In this document: piece by piece, positions 10,610 to 36,511 of the stretch | Layout: the number at the start of each line of letters is the position of its first letter | How positions within the stretch are numbered: position 1 is the stretch's first letter | Source: Candidatus Poribacteria bacterium | Lineage (GTDB): Bacteria; Poribacteria; WGA-4E; UBA9662 | DNA: 36,511 nt | Direction: 5' to 3' | NCBI GenBank assembly: GCA_002709695.1 | Contig: PAQF01000030.1 | Span: forward strand, 1 to 36,511 | Program-made: the position numbers and the translations under genes | Notes under the pieces: model-generated | What the model was told of the DNA's origin: nothing | The model's input: the letters and a program-made list of their open reading frames with translations, nothing else | Database searches by the model: none

Positions 10610-13600
10610 TTGATCCGAGAAAGAAATACCCTAGTTTTTATCCTGCTACTTTTTGCTTCATTCGCGCAAGCAATTACTATTTTTGTCCCAAAAGATCAGC
10701 CTACCATACAAAATGCTATTCATGTTGCTTCCAATGGGGATGAAGTTATTGTATCAACTGGAGTTTATCAAGAAACGATTGCATTTAATGGTAAAAACAT
10801 TATTCTCCGGTCGATCAACCCAGCAGATAAAGACATAGTGAGAACTACAATCATCGATGGTGGGGCCAAAGACTCTGTTATTACCTTGACGGGGAGTGAA
10901 AACGAAACATGTGTCCTTTCAGGGTTCACAATTACGAATGGCAATTCAGTGAATGGTGGTGGGATAAATGGAAATGGTTCTAAAGCAACAATTGAGTATT
11001 GTTTTATCATTGCAAATTCTTCGACCAGTTTGTCAGCCAATGTTAGTGGGGGAGGGATTCATGGTATAAACGGTATTATTCAATATAACACAATCAGAGG
11101 AAATTCGGTAGAGACTCTGTCTGGCTCACGTGTGGCAGCCAGTGGGGGAGCAATTTCCAACAGTAATGGCATTATTCGAAATAATGCCATTACAAATAAT
11201 TTCGCCTATGCGCCTTCTGCAAGTGCTAGTGGAGGAGGATTGGCCTATTGTGATGGTCTCATTGAAAACAATATCATTGCTAATAATGTAGTGTCGGCTG
11301 CCTGGAGTACTTTCGGTGGAGGACTAGCTTATTGTAGTGGTTATATTATTAATAATACAATCGTTTACAATGAACTCCGGTCAAAAACAGGTTTAGCTAC
11401 CTACCAGAAAGGGAGTGGGCTCTACTTTTGTCAAGGTAAAATTAAAAACAGTATCATCTGGAAAAATTTAAATGCTCACCAAATCATGGCAACAAGCATA
11501 CCATCTTATTCGTGTATTGAAGGAGGTCTGGCTGGTATTGGTTCGGTCAATGAGCAGCCTAAATTTATTTCACTGCTGAATCAGGATTTTCGACTCAGTG
11601 CAGGGTCGCCTTGCATTAATGCTGGTGATAATAAAGATGCTCCACGAATAGATTTTACTGGTACCTCTCGGGTTTTGGAAGTTGATATTGGTGCATACGA
11701 ATGGACAAGTTTGCCTCTTGTGATATGGAGTTCAAGTCAAGTTAACAACAGAACAGCACAATTAAAGGGACAAATTAATCCGAACGGTAATGTGACTGAA
11801 TACTATTTCGAATATGGTCAAACAAACAATTATGGACAAACTACAGACGTCAAAAAACTGACTGGTGAATTTGCGATTCTGAAAATTAGTGAGGTAATCA
11901 CCGATCTAGAACCGAATCAAACTTATCATTTCCGTTTAAATGCCCAAAATGATGCTGGGTTTGTCTATGGAGTTGACCAAACTTTTACTTCCGAGGTGCC
12001 GGTTATTTATGTCCCTAGAGACCAACCAACAATTCAGGATGCTGTTGATTTTGCTACAACTGGGGACACAGTTATAATTGCTGATGGGATCTACATAGGA
12101 TCTCGAAATAAAAATATCGACTTTCAAGGTAAATCAATTACTGTTAGATCAGAGAATGGAGCTAATCGTTGTGTGATTAACTGCGAGGGGCAGGGACAAG
12201 GTTTCTTATTTCATAATAATGAAACCGCTGGGTCAGCTATCATTGGTCTCACAATCACCAATGGAAGCGGAAATGGAGGGGCAATATCGTGTATTGGTTC
12301 TTCCCCTACTATTAGGAACTGTAGGATTTCGAATAATACGGCTGCAAGTACTAATGATGGTTATGGTGGTGGGATTTACTGCCGTGATGCAAATCCCGTT
12401 ATCTCTGACTGTGAAATCCTAAATAATGATTATGGCGGAATATATTGTATTCACTCGTCACCCAAAATCATAGGTTGTAAATTCGTGGCTAACAATACCA
12501 GCACGAATGGTGGCGGTATACGTTGTGACTTTTCCTCTCCTGTGATTACAAATACCATCTTTGACAGAAACACTTCCGGAGATCATGGGGGTGCGATCTA
12601 TTGTCAATCCTCCTCTCCAATAATCACCAACTCGTTTTTTACGGAAAATTCTGCTAAGTATGGAGGTGCAATTGCAGGGCTTATCTATTCCATGCCTTCT
12701 GTGATCAACTGCACGCTTACGGCGAACACGGCAGCAACTTCAGGTGGTGCCGTTCATGTCAAAGCTACGTCGTACCCAGAAATTAACAATACGCTGATTT
12801 GGGATAACGTACCCAATGAAATTCATTTTGAAGGGAACCTTCTTCCTGTCTCTTATTCAAATATTAAAGGTGGGTATCAAGGAACGGGAAATATCGATAC
12901 AAATCCGATTTTTGTTGATGTCGAGTCAGATGATTATCGACTCATGGCCTCAAGTGAATGCATTGGTTCTGCAAGTTTGAGTTTTGCTCCGCCAACCGAC
13001 TTATTAGGTGACCTCAGGAGGAATCCTCCAACGATAGGGGCCTACGAAGTTGGTGTTGACATACCATACCAGTACAAAATCCATGTGGAATCAGGTGTAG
13101 GAGGCTTAATTCTACCAGACGGTGAAGTGGTTGTAGATCGCAAGATGGATCAATCGTTTACTATAAAGCCGAATGATGGGTACTATCTTTCAGATGTTGA
13201 AGTCAATGGTGGTTCTGTTGGAGTGATTACTAAATACACTTTCAATAAAGTCAGATCCAATCATACCATTCGAGCAACATTCGCTAGTTTGCCAAAATCA
13301 CTATCAATCAAAAGTGAAAAATTGCTTTATAAAGGCAATACTGCTGAACTTCGTATCGAGTTATTGGATCTTAATGGCGATAAGGCCAACGCTGTACAGC
13401 CGGTCATCATTGAATTGAAATCAACTAGTGAAGACAACATTTTCAGTGCGGGTATTAACAATTCTATTCCAATTAATGGAATTACAATACCCGAAGGTCA
13501 GAATTCTGGTAACTTTTTTTATACAGATTTAGTAGTTGGTATATCAAGTGTTTCGGCGACAGCAAGAGACCTAAACCCTGTTACACAGGAACTTGAGATT

Positions 13601-15412
13601 AGAAGTGCTGTTGACAGCATTTTTATTGATGGGAATCCAGTGACATTCCACCAAGTAGCAACTATTACAGCTCAAGGGAGATCGGATCAGCGAGCTGTAT
13701 TTTCCATTGCTAATTTGGTCGTTGATCAAATCATGGTTGAATCTCCTGATGCAAAAGGGAAATATTTGGCCCAATTTACTCCGATCGCTGATAAGCATCT
13801 GGAAGGTAACTACGATGTCACTGTCAAGATTGGAGAAAGTTGGCAAACATTGAAAAATGGGATCATTATTAATACTACACCAATTATAAAAGCTCCCACG
13901 ATCAACCGTGCTCAGCTACGGAACGGTCAATTATTAATGATACAGGTGGAAGGAAACCGGTCTGGGCTTTTGGTAATTGCTGATATTTCTGAATTGGACT
14001 CAACCGCGAGTGGTCCAATAAAACTTGCCGAAAACCGATCACTGAAAAGGATGTATTCAGCAACCGTTCGTGTTCATGATGACAATGAACATGATGATGG
14101 GATGAAAACTATAAAGATTTCTGCACAAGATCCGCAAGGGAATAAGACGAGTCAACTTACCCAAAGAATCGCGTTACGCAATGTTTTTGATTTTGAATTG
14201 AGTATTCCCAAGAATATTGGTTTAATCCATATTCCAATACAAATCAGCCATGTGAATGGAAAACCAATGATGGTTAAGACTGTTGGTGATTTGTATGATG
14301 TCCTTGGTGGACCCAAAAACGTTAACTTTTTGATTGCTTACGATCATGGCTCTTTGATTTGGAGAAGTTTTCTTGGGGATCGCAGTTATGGCAAACTGGC
14401 TAATCAACTCATTTCAGAAACTACGGGTATTCTCAGCGTTATGCGGAACCCTGTGACTCTGAAACTTGTTGGCAAAGCCCTTGGAAAGCGTGGGGGAAGT
14501 CGAATCAAACTCTACAAGGGCTTAAATTTAATTGGTCTTCCTCTTAACGATGATCGTTTTCAATATTTGAGCGACCTCCTCGACGTTGACGAAATTGGGG
14601 AAATTGTCAAAGGGATTGTAGCTGCCGAAAATGGCGTTTTCAGAACAATTGCTCGATCCAATGATAAGGATGGACTAGTCGTTGTCCATGATATACCTAT
14701 AGAACCTGGAAAAGCAGTTGCATTTATCTGTTCCGAAGAAGGGACAATTGATGTTATGGGGGAAACTTGGAGCCAGCTAGAAGAAAGCCATCCTCCTTTG
14801 GCCTCACCAACTACTGTAACAGAGATGGATTTTAGTAGCACGCCCATCTTAGTTGTACAAGGCCTTTTGCCCTATGAAGCGGGTGTGACACAATTGGCTG
14901 TTAAGAACTTATCAAAAGGTTATGCACTGAATTCCATGGTTATCAACAATTATTATCAGGCTTCTTTTGTCAGTTTGAATGCGGAAGTTATGGTGGAAAT
15001 TGGGGATATTATTGAAATTAGTGCATCGAAAAGTACTGGAGCCGTAGAAATTGAGACTGCTAAACATGTTATAACGCTTCAGGATATCCAAAATAAGCGG
15101 ATTCATGTGGATTTAACGGCAGTTTCGGTTCCAAATGTATCGAGTCTTAGCCAAAACTTTCCTAACCCGTTTAATCCAGAGACTTGGATCCATTATCAAC
15201 TCCCGGAACTATCAGATGTTAGGGTTTTAATTTATGATGTGTCTGGTACTTTGGTCCGCCAGATTTTTGTTGGTTTAAAACCCATTGGAACTCATATAAC
15301 ACACTGGGATGGTCGGTCAACTACGGGTGAGCAGATGGCAAGTGGAATTTACTACTATCACCTTGATGCAGGGAATTTTCAATTCACGCGAAAGATGACT
15401 CTTCTCAAATGA
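10610..15412 (+). CDS. secreted parallel beta-helix protein with FlgD-like C-terminal sorting domain
   Basis: 1600 residues. The start is TTG, with AGGA 11 nt upstream; no ATG is near, and this start gives a clean signal peptide (cleavage after SFAQA, about 21). Two right-handed beta-helix (NosD/PbH1-like) domains, at about 22-365 and 464-815, each open with the same phrase (VPKDQPTIQNA / VPRDQPTIQDA) and contain many N-x-I/SGGG-type coils. An FN3-like module lies between them (about 370-460). An InlB-type bacterial repeat follows (about 820-895, GYYLSDVEVNGGS), then further beta-rich regions. The end (about 1510-1600) has NFPNPFNPETW, an Ig-like FlgD fold and the closing YYYHLDAG-FQFTRKMTLLK, as in surface proteins using a C-terminal sorting signal. 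Beta-helices of this kind often bind or cleave polysaccharide; no catalytic residues are evident. Confidence 0.9.
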   Translation: MIRERNTLVFILLLFASFAQAITIFVPKDQPTIQNAIHVASNGDEVIVSTGVYQETIAFNGKNIILRSINPADKDIVRTTIIDGGAKDSVITLTGSENETCVLSGFTITNGNSVNGGGINGNGSKATIEYCFIIANSSTSLSANVSGGGIHGINGIIQYNTIRGNSVETLSGSRVAASGGAISNSNGIIRNNAITNNFAYAPSASASGGGLAYCDGLIENNIIANNVVSAAWSTFGGGLAYCSGYIINNTIVYNELRSKTGLATYQKGSGLYFCQGKIKNSIIWKNLNAHQIMATSIPSYSCIEGGLAGIGSVNEQPKFISLLNQDFRLSAGSPCINAGDNKDAPRIDFTGTSRVLEVDIGAYEWTSLPLVIWSSSQVNNRTAQLKGQINPNGNVTEYYFEYGQTNNYGQTTDVKKLTGEFAILKISEVITDLEPNQTYHFRLNAQNDAGFVYGVDQTFTSEVPVIYVPRDQPTIQDAVDFATTGDTVIIADGIYIGSRNKNIDFQGKSITVRSENGANRCVINCEGQGQGFLFHNNETAGSAIIGLTITNGSGNGGAISCIGSSPTIRNCRISNNTAASTNDGYGGGIYCRDANPVISDCEILNNDYGGIYCIHSSPKIIGCKFVANNTSTNGGGIRCDFSSPVITNTIFDRNTSGDHGGAIYCQSSSPIITNSFFTENSAKYGGAIAGLIYSMPSVINCTLTANTAATSGGAVHVKATSYPEINNTLIWDNVPNEIHFEGNLLPVSYSNIKGGYQGTGNIDTNPIFVDVESDDYRLMASSECIGSASLSFAPPTDLLGDLRRNPPTIGAYEVGVDIPYQYKIHVESGVGGLILPDGEVVVDRKMDQSFTIKPNDGYYLSDVEVNGGSVGVITKYTFNKVRSNHTIRATFASLPKSLSIKSEKLLYKGNTAELRIELLDLNGDKANAVQPVIIELKSTSEDNIFSAGINNSIPINGITIPEGQNSGNFFYTDLVVGISSVSATARDLNPVTQELEIRSAVDSIFIDGNPVTFHQVATITAQGRSDQRAVFSIANLVVDQIMVESPDAKGKYLAQFTPIADKHLEGNYDVTVKIGESWQTLKNGIIINTTPIIKAPTINRAQLRNGQLLMIQVEGNRSGLLVIADISELDSTASGPIKLAENRSLKRMYSATVRVHDDNEHDDGMKTIKISAQDPQGNKTSQLTQRIALRNVFDFELSIPKNIGLIHIPIQISHVNGKPMMVKTVGDLYDVLGGPKNVNFLIAYDHGSLIWRSFLGDRSYGKLANQLISETTGILSVMRNPVTLKLVGKALGKRGGSRIKLYKGLNLIGLPLNDDRFQYLSDLLDVDEIGEIVKGIVAAENGVFRTIARSNDKDGLVVVHDIPIEPGKAVAFICSEEGTIDVMGETWSQLEESHPPLASPTTVTEMDFSSTPILVVQGLLPYEAGVTQLAVKNLSKGYALNSMVINNYYQASFVSLNAEVMVEIGDIIEISASKSTGAVEIETAKHVITLQDIQNKRIHVDLTAVSVPNVSSLSQNFPNPFNPETWIHYQLPELSDVRVLIYDVSGTLVRQIFVGLKPIGTHITHWDGRSTTGEQMASGIYYYHLDAGNFQFTRKMTLLK

Positions 15413-31912: not shown

Positions 31913-31960
31913 GTGAACTGTTTCACAGATATACAAAATTTAAACCAGAGAAAATTGATA

Positions 31961-33193
31961 ATGAGCTACCGCTACATTACCGAATTATCATGCAACATAT
32001 TACTGTTATTCAGTTTGTCTTTGCATCTACATAGTGAAGTTGGTCCAAAAACTGTACTGGTTCATTACATGCCATGGTACTCATCGAAATCTATAAGTGG
32101 TGGTTGGGGATGGCATTGGACGATGAATTACTTCAATCCTGAAAAAATTAATAAAGATGGTCAACGAGAGTTAGCTTCACACGATTATCCTCTCATCGGT
32201 CCTTATGACTCCAACGATGGCCAAGCTTTGGAATGTCAGGTGTTGTTAATGAAGTTTTCGGGTATAAAAGGAGTGATTCTTGATTGGTATGGTATAGAGG
32301 ATTTTCGAGATTATGCTATGATTCATCGCAACACTAAACACATGATTAAATACATTAAGAGAGCGGAACTTCAGTTTGCAATCTGTTATGAAGACCAAAC
32401 AGTCACACATATGATTGCGGGCAAGTTCCTTCAAAAGCAGGAGGATCATATCCATGGCAAGAAAGTCCTACAATGGCTTGACAAAAACTGGTTTGGTGAT
32501 GATGCCTATATAAAGCTTGATGACCAACCTATGCTACTTGTCTTTGGCCCTCAATATTTCGAGGAAAAACAGTGGAATTATATGGTGTCAGGATTGTCGA
32601 AACGCCCGCGAATTTATGGCCTGCCACATGTTTCTCAGCAGGCTGGGATGAGTGGTGTATTTGGCTGGCCTCCAGTATCTGGGGGAGGAGAGATAGTATC
32701 TGTTGTTTGGAAAGAATACCTTGGCCAGCTTTATACCAAAGGATTGGCCGCAGAAGCTATCATCGCTGTGGCTTTCCCGGGGTTCCATGACATCTATAAT
32801 GATGTTGGTTTGCACGAGAGCATCGGATATATTAATGACCGAGCAGGAAAGACCTTCATTGAGACTTTTGAATATGCATGGAATAGTCAATCAAAGTTTA
32901 TTCAGATTGCTACGTGGAATGACTATGGTGAAGGAACAGGCATTGAACCAACACAATCGTTCAAGTACCAATATCTAGAGGAAATCCAGAAGTATACCCA
33001 AACGGGCTTTGGTCGAGACGACCTGCGATTACCTGTAATATTGTATAACCTTAAAAAGAAACATATGAAAAACTCTGTAGCTATGGAAGATCTGAAACAA
33101 GTTTCCACTTTGTTATTTTCCTCTAAATGTGATGAAGCGAGAATTCTCCTTCAGCCGTATATAGCAAAAAAGACAAACAAAACCGTATGGTAA
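31961..33193 (+). CDS. secreted GH99/GH71-like glycoside hydrolase
   Basis: 410 residues. I start at the ATG at 31961, which gives an N-terminal signal peptide (about 1-25, NILLLFSLSLHLHS). An upstream GTG directly after the previous stop is open but would bury the signal. The domain is TIM-barrel-like with the marks of the GH99/GH71 group (endo-mannosidase and alpha-1,3-glucanase relatives): VHYMPWYSS, GGWGWHW, IGPYDSND, GIKGVILDWYGIED, and the final TWNDYGEGTGIEP with the catalytic-type acidic residues. A C-terminal 50 residues are helical. Secretion suggests breakdown of external glycan such as sponge or algal mannan or glucan; the substrate is inference. It converges with the flagellin gene. 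Confidence 0.85.
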   Translation: MSYRYITELSCNILLLFSLSLHLHSEVGPKTVLVHYMPWYSSKSISGGWGWHWTMNYFNPEKINKDGQRELASHDYPLIGPYDSNDGQALECQVLLMKFSGIKGVILDWYGIEDFRDYAMIHRNTKHMIKYIKRAELQFAICYEDQTVTHMIAGKFLQKQEDHIHGKKVLQWLDKNWFGDDAYIKLDDQPMLLVFGPQYFEEKQWNYMVSGLSKRPRIYGLPHVSQQAGMSGVFGWPPVSGGGEIVSVVWKEYLGQLYTKGLAAEAIIAVAFPGFHDIYNDVGLHESIGYINDRAGKTFIETFEYAWNSQSKFIQIATWNDYGEGTGIEPTQSFKYQYLEEIQKYTQTGFGRDDLRLPVILYNLKKKHMKNSVAMEDLKQVSTLLFSSKCDEARILLQPYIAKKTNKTVW

Positions 33194-33304: not shown

Positions 33305-36300
33305 TTAAACTGTGATTAATGAAATTATGTTCTGTGATATTGAATTGGCTTGAGCTAACATTGCTGTAGTTGATTGTGTTAATATCTGGTTTTTCGCTAG
33401 GCTGGCGGCATCGGATGCAAAGTCAGCATCTTGTATGTTAGAGCGCGAGATTTCAATGTTCTGTGTTTGGTTGGTCAAATTCGACATGGTAAAAGCCAAA
33501 CGGTTCTGCTCTGACGCTAGATAACTTCGTTCCTGGTTAACTACATCTATTGCCATATCCAGAGATGTTATGGCAGATCTGGCCTGATTGATATCCGCTA
33601 CTGATTCATCCTCAATCTCTAATCCACTGGCTGTCACACTGGTAATTCCTAGTTTCAACTGGTGATTGACGTCGTTGTCAAATCCAACTTGTAGGTCCCT
33701 GTTTGGGGAAATTTCTATCTGTTTACCGTTTAGGCTGTCTGTGTGTGGGTTATAACTGTCAATAGAAGGAGTGGAGTGATCAGGACTACCATTGATCTCC
33801 AACTGAATGCCAAATTCATCAAAATTCAGCGTCGTGTCATAACCAACTCGATATTCCAAGCTTTGCTGTAAACCATTCTCTCCCGTCATGGTTAGTTTTC
33901 TGGTTTCTGGCACAAAGAAATCCTGTGAAGAACCAAGTAACGTTGTGGTCGTTTTTGGTGCTTCATTGGTATCAACTTCCAATCCTAATCGGGAAAAATC
34001 TATCGTTTGAGGATTGCTGTGAAATTGGTATCCAATTTCCTCCATGGGGCCTGTATTGGGTGAATTGACTGCCAACGTTGGATTAACGGTAAAATCTTTG
34101 GAATTATCGAGTAGCTGGTTTGCTGTAATCTGGGCGTTATTGCTGTCAACATCAAGTCCTAAATTATCAAAGGAAACTGTTTGAGATTCTCCACTAGATG
34201 AATATTTAATCTCTTGATAGGTTCCATCAGGAGCAGTTGCTGTTAATCTGGCATCAACAATGAATCCTTGGGTCCTGTTAAGTAATATGGTCGATGTTTG
34301 TTCAGCATCATTGCTGTCAACATCAAGTCCTAAATTATCAAAGGAAACTGTTTGAGATTCTCCACTAGATGGATATTTAACCTCTTGATGGGTTCCATCA
34401 GGAGCAACTGCTGTTAATCTGGCGTTAACAGTAAACTCACCAAAACTGTCCAGTAAAATTGCCGTTGTGTTTGCGGCATTACCAGTATCCATTTCGATAC
34501 CTAAGCTGGAGAAATCAACTGTTTGAGAATTGCTGTTAAAGGAGTAGTCAGTTTCTACCGGGGAACCAACTGGCGGAGTTACTTCCAGTGTTGGATTGAT
34601 GGTAAAAGTTTTGGGTGTATTCAGTAAATCTGCTGTCATGTTTACGGCATTTTCAGTATCAACATCAATACCTAAGCTGGAGAAATCAACGCTGGTGTCA
34701 TTCAGATTATATGTAACTTCGCTAGTTGTTGTATCCGGAGCAGTTACAACTAATGTTGGATTGATAGTGAAAGACTGTGAATTGCTGAGTAAAGCATTTG
34801 TCATAGCCGAGGTGTTGTTGGTGTCAACTTGAAGACCTAAATCAGAAAAATCAGCGCTGGTGTCATTCAGATTATATGTAACTTCGCTAGTTGTTGTATC
34901 CGGAGCAGTTACAACTAATGTTGGGTCTATTGTAAAAGTTTGTGAGCTGATTAGTTGCCCTGGTAGAACATCAATATTATTGATATCCATTTCAATACCT
35001 AAATTCGTAAGGGCGACTTTTCCATTAAAGGAATCACCCTGAGTATGGGTGTAGGATTCAGAGAGGCCATCGGGAGCTGTTACTGTCATGGTAACTACAG
35101 GAATTCCTTCATGGTCTAATGTGCTCAATGCATCATTCTTATTTTCACCGAAGGTGTAGAAGAATGTCATGTTCTTAGTTGCACCTGACGGTAAACCCAT
35201 TAGGTTTTTGGCTACATTAATTGAGTTGTCTTCCTTGCCTCCGTTCGGATCGTTTGGTGAATTCAGGACTATATCTGGGTCAGTTATTTTAAAATCTCGC
35301 CCAGCTGACACAACAGCGTCTTTGTCCACACTTCCAATGACAACTGTATACCCTGAAATTTCGCCTACGGCTGAAGCGGCAACTTCACCAGAAGCTAAAG
35401 TTAAAGTATCATTGAAAGTATTAGTTGTGCCATGTGGCCCCCTATCCTGATCAGGATCCGCATTACGTAAATACTTGAGATTACTAATTGGTTGACTGCC
35501 TACATTTTTGAATGTTAAATCAAACCGGAGCACTCGGCTGCCTTCTTCAAGTGAGACAACTTGTTCAATCTCTAAATTGCCATCTGGAGTTGTACCATTA
35601 GCTACTGAAACCTGATGGGTTGCAGTGCTATGATCCCTGACATTGAAGGAAATATTGGGACTGTTTTCTGGAGCGGCATTGCGGTAAAGTTGAGTTGAAC
35701 CACCAATTTCATATTTAACGGAGAACCCCTCCAAAGGAGTACCCGGATAGAAGAAATCTCCACTTGGCCCTTTAGGCCCGGAAGTACCATCAGGATCAAA
35801 CACAACACTAGTATTCCCTAAGTTGGTATTGATTAACGAGGCATCATGATTAATTCCCACCGTCAAAAAATCATTCGTGAGTAATCGGTTAGAACCAGAA
35901 AGAGCTGGATCGTATGTGAATGTAGTTCCACTGCTGTTAGAACTTGCAACCTGCAAAGTATAAACTCCTGGTTGCACGCTTGACTGGTGACTAATTTGAT
36001 TGATAGATGTACCCGAAAGATTGCTGATATCGGCTGTTCCTGCGTCTACCTTGGCACTGACTACGTAGTTGCCAACTGAAGCTGAAGAAGTGTGGTTAAT
36101 AGCAGCTTGACTAATGGCAATTGTGTTTGGATTAACTTGTGAATTAATGCTATAGACACCCGGTTGTATGGAAGCATTATGGTTAATTTTGTTGATGTTA
36201 ACAAGATTACTAATATTTGCTGTGCCAGCGTTGACCTTAGAACTAACTGTGTAGAATCCTGGTTGAGTCAGTGGGGAATTGCTGTGAATAATACTGGTAC

Positions 36301-36511
36301 CTGATACATTACTAATATTTGTTGTGCCGGCATTGACCTTGGAACTAACTGTGTAGAATCCTGGTTGAGTCAGCGGGGAATTGCTGTGAACAATGCTGGT
36401 ACCTGATACGTTGCTAATATTTGTTGTGCCAGCATTGACCTTGGAACTGATCGTGTAGTCGCCCGGTTGCACGACAGAGGAAGCGTTATGTCGGATTTCG
36501 GTAATGGCTGT
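33305..36511 (-). CDS. giant modular flagellin (partial, N-terminus outside window)
   Basis: 1068 residues are visible and the frame is open to the right edge, so the gene starts outside the window. The C-terminal about 90 residues are a clear flagellin D0/D1 end: LDMAIDVVNQERSYLASEQNRL, then NIEISRSNIQDADFASDAASLAKNQILTQ, then TAMLAQANSISQNIISL. The rest is expanded. From the edge inward there are five to six units of about 34 residues (QPGFYTVSSKVNAGTTNISN type), resembling flagellin IN motifs. A beta-rich inserted domain of about 270 residues follows, containing LRFDLTFKNVGSQPISNLKYL and a TTNTFND segment. Then come eight units of 55-60 residues (TLVVTAPDTTTSEVTYNLNDTS, then LGLQVDTNN and LL-FTINP). 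Ordinary flagellins are about 270-600 residues. It should be exported and form, or decorate, the filament. Confidence 0.88.
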   Translation of the reverse strand, partial: TAITEIRHNASSVVQPGDYTISSKVNAGTTNISNVSGTSIVHSNSPLTQPGFYTVSSKVNAGTTNISNVSGTSIIHSNSPLTQPGFYTVSSKVNAGTANISNLVNINKINHNASIQPGVYSINSQVNPNTIAISQAAINHTSSASVGNYVVSAKVDAGTADISNLSGTSINQISHQSSVQPGVYTLQVASSNSSGTTFTYDPALSGSNRLLTNDFLTVGINHDASLINTNLGNTSVVFDPDGTSGPKGPSGDFFYPGTPLEGFSVKYEIGGSTQLYRNAAPENSPNISFNVRDHSTATHQVSVANGTTPDGNLEIEQVVSLEEGSRVLRFDLTFKNVGSQPISNLKYLRNADPDQDRGPHGTTNTFNDTLTLASGEVAASAVGEISGYTVVIGSVDKDAVVSAGRDFKITDPDIVLNSPNDPNGGKEDNSINVAKNLMGLPSGATKNMTFFYTFGENKNDALSTLDHEGIPVVTMTVTAPDGLSESYTHTQGDSFNGKVALTNLGIEMDINNIDVLPGQLISSQTFTIDPTLVVTAPDTTTSEVTYNLNDTSADFSDLGLQVDTNNTSAMTNALLSNSQSFTINPTLVVTAPDTTTSEVTYNLNDTSVDFSSLGIDVDTENAVNMTADLLNTPKTFTINPTLEVTPPVGSPVETDYSFNSNSQTVDFSSLGIEMDTGNAANTTAILLDSFGEFTVNARLTAVAPDGTHQEVKYPSSGESQTVSFDNLGLDVDSNDAEQTSTILLNRTQGFIVDARLTATAPDGTYQEIKYSSSGESQTVSFDNLGLDVDSNNAQITANQLLDNSKDFTVNPTLAVNSPNTGPMEEIGYQFHSNPQTIDFSRLGLEVDTNEAPKTTTTLLGSSQDFFVPETRKLTMTGENGLQQSLEYRVGYDTTLNFDEFGIQLEINGSPDHSTPSIDSYNPHTDSLNGKQIEISPNRDLQVGFDNDVNHQLKLGITSVTASGLEIEDESVADINQARSAITSLDMAIDVVNQERSYLASEQNRLAFTMSNLTNQTQNIEISRSNIQDADFASDAASLAKNQILTQSTTAMLAQANSISQNIISLITV
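34020..35090 (-). repeat. eight tandem 55-60-residue units inside the flagellin
   Basis: Each unit runs from a TAPDG/TAPDT strand through an F-x-x-LG-hydrophobic-x-hydrophobic-D core to a closing LL-x-FT-hydrophobic-NP/A. DNA similarity is high between some neighbours (for example 34720-34740 against 34895-34915, and 34165-34200 against 34333-34368) and weak between others, so the array includes recent and old duplications. Confidence 0.7.
36000..36460 (-). repeat. 102-bp tandem repeats near the visible flagellin N-terminus
   Basis: Units of 34 codons (QPGxYTxSSKVNAGTxNISN, then a spacer with SNSPL or HNAS). Copies beginning near 36241 and 36343 are almost identical, offset by exactly 102 bp. 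Others are diverged. The array may continue past the window edge. Confidence 0.75.

Follow-up and report, generated by a model that had tools for sequence, protein, structure and literature searches.

The window analysed here, 36,511 bases long, lies at the very start of contig 30 (70,516 bases), which belongs to a 5.2-Mb bin that is 96% complete with 2.9% contamination. No 16S rRNA was found in the bin, and the nearest named relative of the host is 'Candidatus Poribacteria bacterium UWMA-0119', a public genome that confirms what an earlier note on this DNA had supposed only conditionally, that the host is a poribacterium. At the end of the window lies a minus-strand reading frame (33305-36511) that is open to the window's edge and extends further in contig 30. 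The complete gene occupies positions 33305-37447 of the contig on the minus strand, starts with GTG at 37447 and has 1,380 codons; residues 313-1380 and the stop codon fall in the window. At 1,380 residues, the encoded protein is about three times as long as a usual flagellin, and it contains no cysteine, an absence that is common in flagellins. Convergent with this gene is one for a WbsX / GH99-like protein (31913-33193, plus strand), which could act on glycans, and elsewhere in the window a 1,600-residue protein (10610-15412, plus strand) has a C-terminal FlgD_ig domain as its sole Pfam match.

Both ends of the protein are those of a flagellin. Flagellin_N (PF00669) matches residues 9-142 with E=1.2e-32 (113 bits against a cut-off of 26.6), and the corresponding D0/D1 domain is encoded beyond the window's end, at 37022-37447 of contig 30 on the minus strand. 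Flagellin_C (PF00700) matches residues 1294-1378 (33314-33568) with E=3.4e-18, in a C-terminal D1/D0 region that spans residues 1234-1380 (33308-33748, minus strand). A Pfam search returned no matches between these two domains. From N to C terminus the layout is D0/D1, a linker (contig 30, 36809-37021, minus strand, outside the window), a first repeat array (A), an insert, eight units of a second repeat family (B), and D1/D0. The earlier note had recognized the C-terminal flagellin signature, had placed two repeat families around an inserted domain, and had made its reading depend on an N-terminal flagellin domain upstream. The signature and the two-family mosaic hold, the latter by HMM units and by lag self-scores compared with shuffles, and because the PF00669 domain is present, an objection based on its absence does not apply. 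The gene encodes a true giant flagellin, longer than 1,000 residues, with conserved D0/D1 and its two termini present.

HMMs resolve about eight A units of 34-38 residues each between residues 184 and 492: a main array at residues 214-492 (contig 30, 35972-36808), preceded by a weaker first unit at residues 184-210. The part inside the window covers residues 313-492 (35972-36511, minus strand). The mean BLOSUM62 self-score of the A region is 0.53 at lag 34 and 0.66 at lag 38, compared with at most 0.08 at the best lag of 200 shuffles. One pair of adjacent units shares 96.5% DNA identity (70-87% for the others), so part of the array was duplicated recently. The Flagellin hook IN motif (PF07196) consists of short beta-containing units of flagellar proteins, and the A repeats had earlier been called IN-like. 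This identity was rejected by profile tests: although IN units are also short, the window gene has no PF07196 match, and HHalign gives a probability of 0.3% against the IN units of the host's own FliD proteins, where the true PF07196 matches of the genome sit. An NCBIfam hint in the A region (TIGR03769, E=2.5e-5, below the cut-off, 17 residues) was set aside as too weak.

The B array occupies residues 784-1233 (33749-35098, minus strand), where HMMs give exactly eight 57-residue units, each with iE <= 7e-20, in agreement with the original estimate of eight units of about 57 residues. At lag 57 this region has a mean self-score of 0.69, compared with 200 shuffles in which no best-lag value rose above -0.29. 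A profile of the motif next to D1, built solely from ordinary poribacterial flagellins and a paralog on contig 20, matches the D1-proximal unit (residues 1177-1233 in the window protein; 33749-33919, minus strand) of this flagellin and of a second giant described below, with iE values of 7e-6 and 5e-5 and the other units in register. When the internal B units were aligned with the ordinary motif by HHalign, the probability was 69%, compared with at most 0.3% for five column shuffles. These profile comparisons indicate that the B units are amplified copies of the ordinary D1-adjacent flagellin motif, not foreign sequence.

Between the two arrays lie a linker (residues 493-512; 35912-35971, minus strand) and a beta-rich insert (residues 513-782; 35102-35911, minus strand). 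The insert spans residues ~493-782, or about 270-290 residues, close to the 270 first proposed. We found no significant relatives of it in Pfam, NCBIfam, PDB sequences, plasmids or viral contigs. Among 85 poribacterial genomes it has two homologs at ~35% identity, both from a different family within the host's class; they are found close to the start of large proteins (4,151 and 1,227 residues), immediately after an apparent signal peptide. Within this set the insert thus recurs solely in one other poribacterium, in two large secreted proteins, and because these homologs stand in predicted secreted proteins, the insert is best read as a secreted-protein domain placed in a flagellin.

An AlphaFold model of the insert, based on three sequences, reached a pLDDT of 47.7. 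The Foldseek search that the earlier note had called for gave, from this weak model, a best match to 4zle (E=2.8e-4, probability 1.00, TM-score ~0.4), and the leading matches were mainly beta-supersandwich proteins: cellobiose and cellobionic acid phosphorylases, GH116, GH149, galactose mutarotase and YidC. The model thus resembles the N-terminal beta-supersandwich of GH94, GH116 and GH149 enzymes and galactose mutarotase, but the insert has no catalytic domain attached and no sequence similarity to them. With low confidence, the fold may be a galactose-mutarotase-like beta-supersandwich, a lead towards a carbohydrate-associated fold. A model of the 978-residue region from A through the insert to B (pLDDT 38.4) was too poor to use; for the A repeats it hinted at regular strands (pLDDT about 60), and for B at a beta-beta-helix arrangement that is below confidence. 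Because the models are poor, the stalk geometry and the fold of the insert stay proposals.

The same genome carries a second giant flagellin on contig 37, a full-length protein of 1,587 residues with the same layout, flanked by FlgM genes. The two giants share 71% identity over residues 1-435, and 80% both over the linker with the early A repeats and over residues 1060-1290, which cover the final B units and the beginning of D1. Their inserts share no significant similarity (best E=0.05). In the same place as the window insert, the second giant has a LamG-like part and an ALK/LTK glycine-rich domain (PF12810, E=8e-17); the LamG-like label was given by eye and by likeness to the contig 20 paralog, Pfam returning no LamG match. 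That paralog, cut off at the end of its contig, has the same LamG-like/glycine-rich cassette with an ALK_LTK_GRD match and a single B-type unit, and the LamG-like parts of the two proteins are 64% identical. A tree of flagellin C-termini groups the two giants as sisters (92/86 support), with the contig 20 gene adjacent. This pattern of identities indicates that the scaffold was retained and the insert exchanged at the same site. A flagellin start much like that of the window gene lies at the end of contig 52 (L022:5818-6044 (+)), and a matching kind of C-terminal half lies at the end of contig 20 (L038:1228-2853 (-)); the two may be pieces of a third giant flagellin that the assembly divided.

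Other flagellins of these genomes also carry additional domains. Contig 80 of the host genome encodes a Laminin_G_3 flagellin, and contig 40 one with a long stretch resembling a coiled coil, its gene cut off by the contig end; plain short flagellins and C-terminal-only relatives are present as well. A flagellin of the same genus (L086:39-2108 (-)) contains a complete subtilisin (S8) domain (PF00082, E=5e-59) in its variable region, with Asp, His and Ser motifs starting at 293, 348 and 495 and a fervidolysin-like prodomain; this gene is broken or misassembled, because it lacks its first ~24 N-terminal residues and is preceded by unrelated DNA. In the same family, two flagellins (L080:1424-2609 (+) and L083:1327-2444 (-)) have LDL-receptor-type YWTD repeats (Ldl_recept_b) in the variable region, and both are frame-broken in the bin. 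Two basic proteins of 200-202 residues (L010:194-796 (-) and L020:4164-4772 (-)), each with a flagellin C-terminus and no N-terminal domain, adjoin flagellin genes.

Expression and export of the giant subunit would be served by the rest of the genome. A sigma28-like promoter (TAAAGTTT-N12-GCCGATA) lies 85-111 bp upstream of the start codon (contig 30, 37532-37558), and other flagellin genes of the bin have similar sigma28-type sites in front of them. The bin contains two FlhA/FlhB/FliP/FliR/FliM/Mot (MotA/B) clusters and a third partial FlhA, together with FliF, FlgB, FlgC, FliS, FlaG, FliD and two FliA-type sigma factors. The earlier note had named flagellar genes elsewhere in the genome as a check, and since two export/motor clusters are present, an objection from missing export genes does not apply. 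The flagellar contigs have 39-43% GC, close to that of the window, and one cluster shows a tetranucleotide correlation of 0.90 with it. The two full clusters and the partial FlhA, which has one in-frame stop, are on contigs 73, 26 and 34 (L026, L027 and L028); the duplication reflects either a dual flagellar system or a second organism binned in. Beside the second export cluster, contig 26 encodes a 3,965-residue FliD-like cap (L103:6979-18876 (-)), with FliD_N at residues 10-105 and FliD_C from residue 2992; other poribacterial FliD_N frames are 328-1,014 residues long, and neither giant flagellin shows similarity to this FliD.

Of the 85 poribacterial genomes, 16 have Flagellin_N; the largest family, with 59 genomes, lacks it altogether, while the three genomes of the host's own family have 8 to 14 matches each. 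Motility, which the earlier note had called notable for a poribacterium, is accordingly not unheard of in the phylum. Poribacteria are also among the poorly studied clades with FlgV, a gene co-conserved with flagellar genes (2024, PMC11607428).

We have described above a complete gene with intact termini, a conserved scaffold with non-homologous inserts, a sigma28-like promoter and the genes for flagellar export. What could such a subunit be for? Because related genes keep the stalk and core and change the insert, the filament may work as a display scaffold, and its subunits would then present exchangeable, probably adhesive, domains; this is our leading explanation, to which we give about an even chance. 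Controlled by sigma28, the giant flagellin would leave the cell through the flagellar type III export apparatus and polymerize via its ordinary D0/D1 domains. The chain would exit the filament core through the A array and return through the B array, so that the two arrays form a stalk holding an unrelated insert at the outermost point. Stalk and core would stay constant as inserts are swapped or as other domains come to occupy the same variable region (supersandwich, LamG plus glycine-rich, LamG, subtilisin, YWTD). Giant subunits are probably mixed with short flagellins of the same regulon. The likeliest use would be binding of glycans, particles or matrix, as in adhesive or substrate-targeting flagella, and an adhesin-like role of the surface-exposed part, already suggested in the earlier note, is plausible and is the reading we favour.

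The strongest alternative is mechanical: the giant flagellin would serve only to make the swimming filament thicker and stiffer, as in Bermanella marisrubri, and no binding role would fall to the insert. Published giants of comparable size that duplicate the region next to D1 and carry an extra insert do build filaments with a width of 30 nm or more (PMC6248924), and the B repeats duplicate a normal flagellin motif. Thickening leaves unexplained, however, why similar scaffolds carry unrelated, independently known extracellular domains, and why the insert recurs in secreted proteins that are not flagellar; we consider it rather unlikely. An antigenically variable coat, in which repeats expand and contract and inserts are swapped, giving escape from phages, predators or host recognition, would fit the near-identical A units and the swapping of paralogous cassettes between genes. 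The four ambiguous bases within the repeats of the window gene might also seem to speak for it, but they are not repeat-specific, because single Ns occur in the unrelated FlaG/FliD genes of contig 40 too, and their reading as strain variation was dropped. Near the giant flagellin gene there are no inverted repeats and no promoter switch, so that this second suggestion of the earlier note gained no positive evidence and appears improbable. Least probable is a product that never enters a filament (a flagellar-exported secreted protein, a pseudogene or an assembly chimera): these bins contain several flagellin genes that are truncated, frame-broken or interrupted by a contig end, as well as short C-terminal-only flagellin-like genes, but the window gene is a single 1,380-codon open frame with intact termini and a sigma28-like promoter, and a full-length paralog of the same layout lies on another contig.

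The display reading can be widened, more tentatively, to the whole lineage. In these flagellated Poribacteria the filament might be a modular display, in which near-constant giant scaffolds swap supersandwich, laminin-G and ALK-type glycine-rich inserts, related flagellins carry a YWTD propeller or a subtilisin, and the cap is possibly enlarged, so that the filaments of one cell could bind or digest different extracellular material. We regard this broader proposal as possible, with well below an even chance. Poribacteria are known mainly from sponge symbionts, and the present genomes place a rich flagellar system in that phylum. If the inserts bind glycans or matrix, they may reveal the means by which flagellated relatives become attached to particles or hosts. 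Because core and stalks are shared by two giants of one genome whose tips are unrelated, and other domain-bearing flagellins accompany them, the idea of the filament as an exchangeable scaffold is directly testable.

It is instructive to compare this protein with known flagellins. The earlier note had called flagellins of more than 1,000 residues rare; the size stands here, and the rarity needs softening, as such giants occur in many phyla, Poribacteria being absent from those listed (Thomson 2018, PMC6248924). Like the Bermanella and Oleibacter giants of that study, the window protein has more than 1,000 residues, conserved D0/D1, a tandem duplication next to D1 and an insert between repeat blocks, and its B array resembles in layout their duplicated 'domain-extension' (DE) region. 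It differs in its poribacterial host, in having two different repeat families flanking the insert, in eight or nine B copies as opposed to two, and in an insert that has kin in non-flagellar secreted proteins and is unrelated to that of the sister giant. Foreign domains in the hypervariable surface region are also shared with flagellinolysins and other domain-bearing flagellins, for which 61 different domains have been described (Eckhard et al. 2017, PMC5595980). Flagellinolysin identity was rejected for the window protein: the NCBIfam match scores 32.7 bits against a cut-off of 205, its best stretch lies in the D1 region, and no HExxH metalloprotease motif was found in the sequence. Its insert family, moreover, has no Pfam or NCBIfam name and is placed between repeat stalks, and several inserts occur on related scaffolds in one genome. 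We found no description of a subtilisin- or YWTD-bearing flagellin in the part of the literature searched, where YWTD was not itself a search term and an earlier report is possible. Giant and domain-bearing flagellins are therefore already known; new here are their presence in Poribacteria, the differing stalks on either side of the insert, and sister giants that differ in the insert they carry.
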